Shown piece by piece: positions 33,003 to 35,335 of a stretch of DNA of 37,478 nucleotides (position 1 is its first letter; each line of letters begins with the position of its first letter). The DNA is from Bacteroidales bacterium (GTDB taxonomy: Bacteria; Bacteroidota; Bacteroidia; Bacteroidales; ML635J-15), in contig JAQVOR010000019.1 of the NCBI GenBank assembly GCA_028702535.1, positions 1 through 37,478 on the forward strand, written 5' to 3'. The translations under genes were made by a program, and so were the position numbers. The notes under the pieces were generated by a model. That model saw nothing but the letters and a program-made list of their open reading frames with translations, ran no database searches and was not told the DNA's origin.

Positions 33003-33929
33003 ATGCGAAGTCGTTTAGTAATATTGTTTTTGTGCGTATGTCTGTCGGGTTTTACTCAAATGACACAGGAGCAGTATATTGAAAAGTATGCCTCAATAGC
33101 TGTAAAAGAAATGAAACGTGTGGGAGTTCCTGCGAGTATAACTCTTTCGCAAGGGATTTTAGAATCGGCTAGTGGTAATTCTTTTCTTGCAAAGCAAGGG
33201 AATAATCATTTTGGAATAAAATGCCATAACTGGAAATGGGATAAAATTTATGCCGATGATGACACTAAAAATGAATGCTTTAGAAAATATAATAATGTGG
33301 AAGATTCATACCGTGACCATTCTGATTTTTTAAGAGAACACAATCGTTATCACTTTCTTTTTGAACTTGAAATTATCGATTATCAAGGCTGGGCCAAAGG
33401 ACTTAAAAAAGCTGGATATGCTACAAATCCGGCTTATCCCGAAAGATTAATAGGTCTAATTGAAAAACACGAATTATATAATTATGATTTGGGCAAGGCA
33501 AAGCCTAGTGATAAAAAACCAAACCGTAATAACAGCAATAAAAACAATTATGATGATGGATTTGAGATAAATCTATTTGCTGACGATGTACTTGAAAACA
33601 ACAGAGTGCCTTATATTGTTACAAAAAACAATACAGATATTAACACTATATCACAAGAACTCAATTTAATGACTTGGCAAATAACAAAATATAACGACTT
33701 AAATAAAGATGAAATTATTGCTGCAAACGACACCATTTACCTTAAACCAAAACGCAATAAAGCATCTAAAGCTAACGATACTCATCTTGTTAAGTCGGGT
33801 GAAACTATGAGGGGGATTTCTCAAAAATATGCGGTAAAACTTAAAAAGCTTTACCAGAAAAACAATATGAAACAAGGAGATGAGCCGCTACCTGGAACAA
33901 AAATAAATTTAAGGAAAAGAGTAAAATAA
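33003..33929 (+). CDS. GH73 N-acetylglucosaminidase with two LysM domains
   Basis: The 308-residue product has a signal peptide (LVILFLCVCLSGFTQ) and a mannosyl-glycoprotein endo-beta-N-acetylglucosaminidase (GH73) domain at about residues 21-160: PASITLSQGILESASGNS (catalytic Glu E54), QGNNHFGIKC, FRKYNNVEDSYRDHSDFL and GYATNPAYPERLIGLIEKH. Two LysM domains follow, the first at about 205-250 (YIVTKNNTDINTISQELN) and the second at about 262-305 (HLVKSGETMRGISQKYAV). It should bind and cut peptidoglycan in the periplasm, for wall turnover or cell separation. It is monocistronic and divergent from the unknown secreted protein. Confidence 0.95.
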   Translation: MRSRLVILFLCVCLSGFTQMTQEQYIEKYASIAVKEMKRVGVPASITLSQGILESASGNSFLAKQGNNHFGIKCHNWKWDKIYADDDTKNECFRKYNNVEDSYRDHSDFLREHNRYHFLFELEIIDYQGWAKGLKKAGYATNPAYPERLIGLIEKHELYNYDLGKAKPSDKKPNRNNSNKNNYDDGFEINLFADDVLENNRVPYIVTKNNTDINTISQELNLMTWQITKYNDLNKDEIIAANDTIYLKPKRNKASKANDTHLVKSGETMRGISQKYAVKLKKLYQKNNMKQGDEPLPGTKINLRKRVK

Positions 33930-34055
33930 TTATTCCTCTTACTATCAAACATGTAAAATCCGCAAATATAAATTACTGAATATTACGTTCAATAAAATAT
34001 CTATTACGAATACACAGAGCTATTTCTGCGAGATACTCAAATATATTAATGCAAA

Positions 34056-34133
34056 AACACCCGAGTAAAGTACTCGGGCGTTAGTATTAACCCTAATCAA
34101 CCATGAAAAAGAGAAAAGTAATGAGATTACTTT
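34056..34133. ncRNA. Two-hairpin element, copy 1
   Basis: Hairpin 1 is CCCGAGTA (34060-34067) with TACTCGGG (34071-34078), extended by AAC/GTT outside one mismatch. The linker is TAACCCTAATCAACC, directly followed by ATGAAAAAGA (ATG 34103). Hairpin 2 is AAAGTAAT (34115-34122) with ATTACTTT (34126-34133). On the minus strand hairpin 1 is followed by GTTTTTG. The linker matches copies 2 and 3 while the stems do not. Only in this copy, bases 34131-34160 can form another 12-bp hairpin. Confidence 0.7.
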
Positions 34134-34293
34134 ACCTATATAACAAGGTATATAGGTAAAATGTTGCATACACTAATGCTAAAATATACTTTACACTTAT
34201 AATAAATGTCTAAAGATGATAGAAATGATACATTTGGGAATCATTTCTAAATAAAATCAAAATAAGTTTAATTTTATTGCAAAGTCTAAAATA

Positions 34294-34378
34294 ACAAGAG
34301 TTCGGTTTAGTGCCGAACTCTTGTATTAACCCCAATCAACCATGAAAAAGAAAACTTTTATCATTATAATTTGATAAA
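34294..34378. ncRNA. Two-hairpin element, copy 2
   Basis: Hairpin 1 is ACAAGAGTTCGG (34294-34305) with CCGAACTCTTGT (34313-34324), 12 perfect pairs around the loop TTTAGTG. The linker is TAACCCCAATCAACC, followed by ATGAAAAAGA (ATG 34342). Hairpin 2 is TTTATCA (34357-34363) with TGATAAA (34372-34378). On the minus strand hairpin 1 is followed by TATTTT, and a promoter lies just upstream of hairpin 2. Confidence 0.75.
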
Positions 34379-34388
34379 TGTTTATATG

Positions 34389-34419
34389 CAAATGTACACA
34401 CAAAAAAACTTACTAACAA
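34389..34419 (-). promoter_or_regulatory. Minus-strand promoter candidate for element copy 2
   Basis: Read on the minus strand, TTG (34419-34417) and TACATTTG (34396-34389) are separated by exactly 20 bp, the same spacing as at the parD and methyltransferase promoters. The predicted start, a few bases after the box (about 34383-34380), falls at the edge of hairpin 2, so the transcript would cover hairpin 2, linker and hairpin 1 in that order. Confidence 0.5.
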
Positions 34420-34493
34420 ATTGATATGTTAAAAAAATATTAAAATTTTGTTATTATAAGATTTCCTAAAATTTGATTTGAATATTAAAAATA

Positions 34494-34585
34494 AAAGAGC
34501 CCGAGCTTTGGTGGCTCAGGCTCTTTGTACTAACCCCAATCAACCATGAAAAAGAGAAAAGATAAATCAAATTTGCATTTGATTT
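34494..34585. ncRNA. Two-hairpin element, copy 3
   Basis: Hairpin 1 is AAAGAGCC (34494-34501) with GGCTCTTT (34519-34526), then a C/A mismatch and GAGC/GCTC around the loop TTTGGTG, which differs from the copy 2 loop at one base. The linker is TAACCCCAATCAACC, then ATGAAAAAGA (ATG 34546). Hairpin 2 is AAATCAAAT (34564-34572) with ATTTGATTT (34577-34585). On the minus strand hairpin 1 is followed by TATTTTTAAT, terminator-like. No strong promoter box is seen on either side. Confidence 0.7.
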
Positions 34586-34750
34586 TCGATACGAAGAAAA
34601 GCATTTTTTTATAATAAAACTAATGTATTTTACTAAAATTAGATGTACTTGACGTTAAAAATGGTCAAATCGAATAAAAATCATATCAAACAGTTAAAAT
34701 AAAAATAATCTAAGTGTTGTCCGTATCAATATATTTTGTAAATTTGTTAA

Positions 34751-35335
34751 ATGAACTTTAATCTAGACATATTAAGGGTTATTTCTAATAACGTTAAGCC
34801 TAGTGTTGGAAAGATACTTATTTCAGAGCCATTATTAGATGATTTGTATTTTGGTCGATCTGTCGTGTTTCTAATTGATGAGGTTGAAGACTCGTTTATG
34901 GGCTTAGTGCTTAACAATACTTCAGATCTTTTATTAAAGGAGGTTATTGACGGTTTCGATAATTGTGATTGCCCTCTTTTTTTAGGGGGACCTGTGAATC
35001 CTGATGTATTGTATTATATTCATACATATAAAAATATATCTGATGTCGAAAATATTTCCGAAAATCTTTATTTTGGAGGAGACTTAGATGAAATTCGTTT
35101 ATTGGTAAGTCAAGGAAAATTAAATAACTCTAATATTAAATTTTTTATTGGTAATGCGGGTTGGGCTCCTGGCCAACTTTGCGAAGAAATTAGTTTTAAC
35201 TCATGGCTAGTTAGTGATGTTCCAAGGAAATTTTTATTCTCTAATCATTTGGAGATGTGGAGTGAATCCTTAGGATTTGTGAGCGACCGTTATCAAATTT
35301 GGAAAAACTTCCCTATAAACCCCGATTTAAACTAA
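34751..35335 (+). CDS. yqgE: YqgE/AlgH family protein
   Basis: The 194-residue protein matches the YqgE/AlgH family over its full length: GKILISEPLLDDLYFGRSVV, SFMGLVLNN, PLFLGGPVNPDVLYYIHTY, YFGGDLDEIRLLV, NIKFFIGNAGWAPGQLCEEI and a W-rich end. The family is widespread and of uncertain biochemical role. It is cytoplasmic, with no signal peptide. It is convergent with the DivIC/FtsB-like gene, with only 7 bp between the two stop codons. The first gene downstream of the three RNA-like elements, it might be affected by them if they act in cis. Confidence 0.95.
   Translation: MNFNLDILRVISNNVKPSVGKILISEPLLDDLYFGRSVVFLIDEVEDSFMGLVLNNTSDLLLKEVIDGFDNCDCPLFLGGPVNPDVLYYIHTYKNISDVENISENLYFGGDLDEIRLLVSQGKLNNSNIKFFIGNAGWAPGQLCEEISFNSWLVSDVPRKFLFSNHLEMWSESLGFVSDRYQIWKNFPINPDLN

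Follow-up and report, generated by a model that had tools for sequence, protein, structure and literature searches.

The best-described sRNAs resembling the locus studied here are the FopS family (RF04319), reported from within the Bacteroidaceae (PMC11697453). In Bacteroides thetaiotaomicron, FopS sRNAs pair with the translation starts of susC-type mRNAs and block initiation in vitro, an effect counteracted by RbpB, which also binds FopS (PMC11697453). Another sRNA of this species, GibS, shares with the present locus a long unpaired seed at the 5′ side that base-pairs in the region of the start codon, and differs in its length of 145 nt (PMC7366714) and in its two seeds, R1 and R2 (PMC11697453). 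The locus has in common with FopS that several paralogous sRNAs are present per genome, that a seed core (UUUUUCAUGGU) is followed by GGUUA, that each of the three copies ends in one 3′ intrinsic terminator hairpin, and that the genome has an RRM gene. Unlike FopS, it has an extra 5′ stem-loop between promoter and seed, a tandem layout at one locus and an ECF-like promoter for one sibling, C. Neighbouring, closely similar sRNA genes comparable to these siblings include PrrF1/PrrF2 in Pseudomonas and NgncR_162/163 in Neisseria; we know of no sequence relation between these and the array, and both their phylum and their targets are different. In the titles and abstract openings listed from the open-licence literature we found no report of the array, the related work listed being on B. 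thetaiotaomicron and Porphyromonas, together with a 2026 preprint that reportedly deals with a nitrite-responsive RNA locus of a commensal. Judged from its sequence and that of its orthologues, the array is most likely a conserved set of sibling sRNA genes that are of the FopS kind in layout and seed core.

The window (the whole stretch of DNA analyzed, 37,478 nucleotides) contains a 38-nt repeat in three copies, at 34081-34118, 34320-34357 and 34524-34561, with spacings of 239 and 204 and with 82-92% identity of copies 2 and 3 to the first. The three units are flanked by a glucosaminidase/LysM gene (33003-33929, plus strand) and yqgE/algH, beyond which lies a DivIC-like gene. All units fold better than shuffled sequences on both strands (z -3.6 to -7.4), and the 23-nt linker pattern has no site outside the array in the own genome with up to three mismatches allowed, so the three sibling repeats named in the preliminary description are real. 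A scan found a terminator-like site on the minus strand of every unit and a further one on the plus strand of unit 1, compared with 0.1 expected in all. The strand implied by the preliminary description is thereby reversed: the RNA would read from the minus strand, on which hairpin 1 of each unit is an intrinsic terminator. In that direction each unit has the order promoter, 5′ stem-loop, linker and terminator, and the near-invariant linker reads UUUCUCUUUUUCAUGGUUGAUURGGGUUARUA. The parts of the array are the following.

34486-34587, minus strand: predicted sRNA A, about 100 nt, first in transcription order and nearest yqgE (covariance-model match 34486-34559; 5′ end inferred from the promoter position in orthologues)
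34592-34600, minus strand: putative degenerate -7 box of sRNA A, TTTTCTTCG (TTTG stands there in most A-type orthologues)
34561-34587, minus strand: 5′ stem-loop of sRNA A, GAAAATCAAAT..ATTTGATTTATC (fold scores; kept in A-type orthologues)
34528-34559, minus strand: conserved linker and predicted seed of sRNA A (orthologue alignment, column conservation)
34494-34526, minus strand: intrinsic terminator of sRNA A (terminator scan; covariation)
34287-34383, minus strand: predicted sRNA B, about 97 nt (covariance-model match 34287-34355; putative 5′ end)
34389-34396, minus strand: putative sigma-ABfr type -7 box of sRNA B, TACATTTG (match to the consensus TAnnTTTG)
34352-34383, minus strand: 5′ stem-loop of sRNA B (fold scores)
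34325-34355, minus strand: conserved linker and predicted seed of sRNA B (orthologue alignment, column conservation)
34294-34324, minus strand: intrinsic terminator of sRNA B (terminator scan; covariation)
34047-34133, minus strand: predicted sRNA C, about 85 nt (covariance-model match 34047-34116; putative 5′ end)
34139-34168, minus strand: ECF-like promoter of sRNA C, TGCAACA (34168-34162), N17, GTTATA (34144-34139), found in 7 of 9 C-type copies (sigma class putative)
34115-34133, minus strand: 5′ stem-loop of sRNA C, AAAGTAAT/ATTACTTT (orthologues, fold scores)
34085-34116, minus strand: conserved linker and predicted seed of sRNA C (orthologue alignment, column conservation)
34056-34082, minus strand: intrinsic terminator of sRNA C (terminator scan; covariation)
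34751-35335, plus strand: yqgE/algH (DUF179), divergent neighbour and synteny marker, outside the RNA

Six genomes have arrays of three copies (G000, G299, G300, G305, G306 and G308), and each of them, followed in the direction of transcription, begins with the A type and ends with the C type; the middle copy is named B from its position, and its upstream sequence is of more than one sort. Of the 19 non-C copies, 8 have the motif TAnnTTTG, which we take to be the sigma-ABfr -7 consensus, at a distance of 36-48 nt before the seed core; copy B of the window is one of them, while A-type copies in arrays have degenerate boxes only, as in the window. C-type copies have a different upstream motif, presumably resembling an ECF-sigma promoter, in which TGCAACA is followed after 15-18 nt by a GTT-box (7 of 9 copies), together with an AAAGTAA/TTACTTT stem. 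The TGCAACA/GTT motif was also found upstream of one non-C copy, L106. As a regulon marker it showed no excess: 417 kb of the own genome yielded a single site, that of copy C, against 1.1 expected.

Because plain MAFFT alignments misaligned the stems, the covariance model was seeded from copy 2 alone and then realigned, proceeding to a model of the three copies and to a third one, R3, built on 25 copies. Across 28 copies, 22 of 33 linker columns are invariant compared with 0 of 30 directly upstream, a figure that is partly circular because the models that found the copies include the linker. Hairpin 1 has 12, 12 and 13 pairs in the three window copies, and in their structure-guided alignment, which had been fitted to the structure, 97.2% of stem cells are paired and 8 of 12 pairs are changed on both sides, versus 3.1 in shuffles. 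In the 25-copy alignment, 94.8% of terminator cells are paired (69.0% shuffled), 81 cells have two-sided changes (24.6 in shuffles) and the covariation score is 0.774 (0.283 shuffled), none of the three being reached by any of 500 shuffles, and the score drops to at most 0.151 when the partner is slid by 1-3 columns; these covariation numbers lean upward because the structure guided the fitting of the alignment and the copies are relatives of one another. The count of pairs with two-sided change in the 25 copies (11 of 12) is not special, with 65 of 500 shuffles reaching it. Terminator covariation alone is evidence only of a kept terminator. Taken with the linker, it bears out the earlier claim of a nearly invariant linker accompanied by covarying stems.

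The 5′ stem-loop is supported across copies as a group. The 48 nt upstream of the seed core have a mean z of -2.30 in 28 copies, compared with -0.06 and -0.02 in two flank controls of 28 windows each; single values range from -0.3 to -5.4, and the copies are not independent. Several single copies are not significant, including L018 and L020 (z -0.3), and part of the fold in window copy 1 is a hairpin that overlaps the predicted promoter. With 60 nt upstream of the seed core, shuffles as good numbered 0 of 500 for copy 1, mostly via this hairpin, 8 of 500 for copy 2, partly via another hairpin further up, and a weak 18 of 500 for copy 3. The preliminary description had both hairpins paired in every copy. 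Hairpin 2 of copy 1 as drawn (TTTACCTATATA) is the one overlapping the predicted promoter, is not kept in orthologues and gives way to AAAGTAA/TTACTTT as the conserved 5′ stem.

The covariance model from the three copies strongly matched 11 of the 26 genomes of the same genus (E <= 1.1e-6), and R3 identified 28 copies at E < 1e-10 in 14 of 31 genomes of the host family, representing four of the five genera searched. Each of the 13 other carriers has 1-3 strong matches, compared with the three paralogues in the own genome. The locus is divergently adjoined by yqgE in 13 of the 14 carriers, the exception being G309, and one carrier (G297) has a second copy on another contig. The covariance-model search proposed in the preliminary description thus yielded further copies with covarying stems in relatives, and these copies with their near-constant linker fit the structured RNA family, rather than protein family, that it had called. 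As a separate observation, G316 harbors a divergent second copy (L037, 1501-1571; CTCTTTTTCATGGTTATTGGGGTTTTAGTTGG plus terminator) on a contig other than that of its yqgE locus. Seven same-genus genomes (G274, G302, G304, G185, G081, G315 and G296) lack a strong array match and an RRM match alike, and no YqgE homologue could be found in them; the ‘genus’ may for this reason hold two quite different groups.

The exact linker was found in 13 stretches of named genomes, all metagenome-assembled (11 Bacteroidales, one Marinilabiliales, one Bacteroidota). R3 matched 23 of 392 other genomes in the order sample at E <= 0.003. Exact E-values would predict about 1.2 such genomes; the values used are rough, by a factor of about 5 near 0.01 and 1. 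By eye, a TTCAT core is at the seed position in 15 of these 23 loci and absent in 8 (L171, L177, L181, L184, L185, L188, L189 and L190), which were left out as relatives along with L107. The whole layout is clearest in L168, L170, L178 and a true FopS, L180 (66.6 bits), and, within the host family, in L108 (E 0.02) and L037 (E 9e-5). Five of the 15 loci with the core (L169, L173, L174, L183 and L186) form a separate lineage in one other family of the order; they have TTCATGTTGTTTTGGTTAATGG and a terminator in common and are possibly a further sRNA family. A 23-mer search with up to three mismatches matched 10 of 295 order genomes including the own one, and the nine others, with one site each at 2-3 mismatches, are chance-like because a reversed control matched 8 genomes. 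Viral contigs had no exact linker pattern. In 2 of 16 viral stretches (L258 and L266, IMG/VR), TTTTTCATAGTTGATT[AT]GG precedes a terminator-like hairpin, possibly marking relatives carried by phages. Of the remaining 14 stretches, 10 consist of a single repeated sequence that is unrelated.

We put the probability at roughly two in three that the array consists of three tandem sibling genes for trans-acting sRNAs which, as FopS does, act through their seed on AUGAAAAA starts. Each sRNA, of about 85-100 nt on the minus strand, would have its own promoter and its own intrinsic terminator, and the 5′ stem-loop would probably protect the RNA. The seed would be the conserved single-stranded linker, whose core UUUUUCAU(GG) is antisense to AUGAAAAA, a start that is commoner in signal-peptide genes, so that it would cover the start codons of chosen envelope and secreted-protein mRNAs and block their translation in the mode of the FopS sRNAs of Bacteroides. 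The promoters appear to differ, being of housekeeping type for B, degenerately so for A, and ECF-like for C; with one shared seed, different signals would therefore feed one target set, most likely with an RbpB-type RRM protein as partner. The analysis shows the anatomy of the array, its conservation, its covariation and its synteny, while transcription, targets, repression, partner, promoter classes and shared descent with FopS are inferences.

The preliminary description knew of no named family that fits. FopS does share the layout and an identical 11-nt seed core followed by GGUUA, the middle of the seed being different, though its model misses these copies. An Rfam search of the window gave no FopS match at gathering threshold, and lax matches to MicC, Thr leader, Spot 42 and others were rejected, being far below cut-offs and driven by terminators or AT-rich sequence. 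With the RF04319 model, one copy in the window scores 19.9 bits (E 2.1) among the matches listed, against a curated cut-off of 56, while a chance place inside a neighbouring gene scores 22.4 bits; six relatives' loci with 10 copies gave no match at E <= 2. The array copies are not FopS members, as the FopS model scores them at chance level. RF04319 passes its cut-off in 75 of the 393 genomes in the order sample, and these hits fall under many family labels; none of the five sampled genomes of the host genus is among them, and of these five only the own genome carries the array.

In a local alignment of linkers, ours and FopS score 22 with 11 identical letters, matched by 7 of 2000 shuffles; the GGUUA that follows in both lies outside this score. 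Shuffles as good numbered 0 of 2000 for our linker with L108 and with L037, 2 with L168 and 15 with L178; they numbered 0 for L168 with L178, 7 for FopS with L108, 1 for FopS with L168 and 301 for L037 with L178. Possible intermediates between the array and FopS, to go by these sequences, occur elsewhere in the order, and the RF04319 model gives one of them, L178, 30.6 bits (E 1.1). Shared descent of array and FopS is likely; the core could also come from common selection for AUGAAAAA pairing. On the latter account the siblings are a real sRNA family without descent from FopS, and the shared UUUUUCAUGG arose from pairing with AUGAAAAA starts, an alternative we take seriously at somewhat below even odds. 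It would explain why the scored identity is only 11 nt and the FopS model is at chance level, as well as the architecture: in the FopS copies listed, 29 in number, the seed directly adjoins the -7 box, whereas here, with 5′ ends placed by prediction, a 5′ stem-loop intervenes between promoter and seed. It sits less well with the element order, which is that of FopS with GGUUA at the same place, and with L108, L037 and L168, which align to our linker over 22 to 33 columns. Two further observations concern FopS itself. By eye, FopS genes in L191, L197, L199, L201, L206 and others have a palindrome like ATGTTGTATAACAT, a possible operator, before the TAnnTTTG box; and in L180 the FopS copy (1504-1573) is followed, after 76 nt and on the strand it shares, by a TPP riboswitch (1650-1751).

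The proposed seed function was compared with gene starts in the own genome, in a sample of 268 genes (379 kb plus the window) with signal peptides assigned on a simple hydrophobicity criterion. Many bacterial protein messages begin with AUGAAAAA, to which the linker core is antisense, and ATGAAAAA starts 15 of 105 signal-peptide-like genes versus 6 of 163 others (p 0.002). The real linker does slightly better on gene starts than shuffled ones: among 100 of these, 3 reach its top-20 mean energy and 9 its top-50 signal-peptide count. Signal-peptide genes make up 7, 20 and 38 of the 20, 50 and 100 best-pairing starts, respectively, compared with 105 of 268 overall; there is no enrichment among paired starts because these shares are about the 39% base rate, and the two best-pairing starts in the sample are not signal-peptide genes. 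SusC-type mRNAs as targets in the own genome came out mostly negative: of the 17 starts of TonB-dependent-receptor genes, 3 fall outside 2 SD of the shuffled linkers.

Sites complementary to 21 nt of the linker with up to three mismatches number 205 (array copies included) against 123 for the reversed pattern in the 14 carriers, and 57 against 31 in 14 non-carriers, hence no carrier-specific excess; the comparison is weak because the non-carrier control counts are far lower and base composition is probably different. Among the matches listed, which run from the fewest mismatches up, two non-array sites in the 14 carriers have no more than one mismatch. Each falls on the start codon of a protein that looks exported, in G295 a papain-family lipoprotein and in G299 a protein with an SprB-like repeat (below Pfam's cut-off). 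The 14 non-carriers have no non-array site at this level, and the best other non-array sites fetched, from genomes partly listed, have 2-3 mismatches. Overall, the target evidence is weak.

RRM_1 genes are present in 17 of the 31 family genomes, in all 14 carriers and in 3 of 17 non-carriers (Fisher p 3.5e-6). This is a correlation with phylogeny, since RRM presence divides mostly along a clade boundary at which yqgE differs too. The own genome has two RRM matches, one of them an 84-aa protein. Separately, one relative (L253) has a seed-like sequence downstream of an RRM gene, which looked like chance and was discarded. Were the linker a binding site for such a protein, the RNAs could be decoys that titrate it rather than pair with mRNAs. 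This is distinctly unlikely, although 22 invariant columns are long for a seed, RRM genes co-occur with the array, the target tests are weak and RbpB does bind FopS (PMC11697453); the corresponding FopS region pairs with mRNAs and RbpB counteracts this (PMC11697453), and titration leaves the antisense match to AUGAAAAA without explanation.

That the units are cis elements, terminators or attenuators merely halting read-through between yqgE and the glucosaminidase gene, is very improbable: the terminators are indeed oriented along the minus strand, but they end neither message because both genes are on the plus strand, and neither the conserved linker nor the promoter-like boxes inside the array would be accounted for. 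Plus-strand leader peptides, or a structured leader starting ATGAAAAAG, are scarcely tenable. An ATG with short frames is present on that strand, but the peptide version was rejected, as orthologues show no conservation past the first few codons. Along the plus strand, yqgE is the first gene beyond the array, and what follows two of the three units is a further unit instead of a gene. The small MKK frames that the preliminary description pointed to are an antisense image of the seed, with no conservation behind them in orthologues. A repeat of transposon origin, which it had suggested looking for, has a vanishingly small probability: the units are repeated and have hairpins, as a MITE-like element would, but they occupy one locus in the own genome, phage and plasmid records gave no match, and order and synteny are fixed across four genera.

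Beyond the reading of three sibling trans-acting sRNAs, a wider scheme, which we consider doubtful, would make FopS one branch of a Bacteroidales-wide sRNA superfamily with an antisense-to-AUGAAAAA seed on translation starts of the exported proteome; here, three arrayed siblings would link housekeeping and ECF-type (perhaps envelope-stress) signals to the same targets via an RbpB-type protein. To our knowledge, post-transcriptional control in Bacteroidota has been described mainly from Bacteroides. The array family adds a further lineage in which structure covaries, synteny is conserved and an RRM protein is a candidate partner, so that it can tell what in the FopS scheme is general. Should the relation to FopS hold, whole branches escape RF04319 in its present form. 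By aiming its seed at a common start of signal-peptide genes, the family would, if this is true, have a simple general means of lowering exported proteins.
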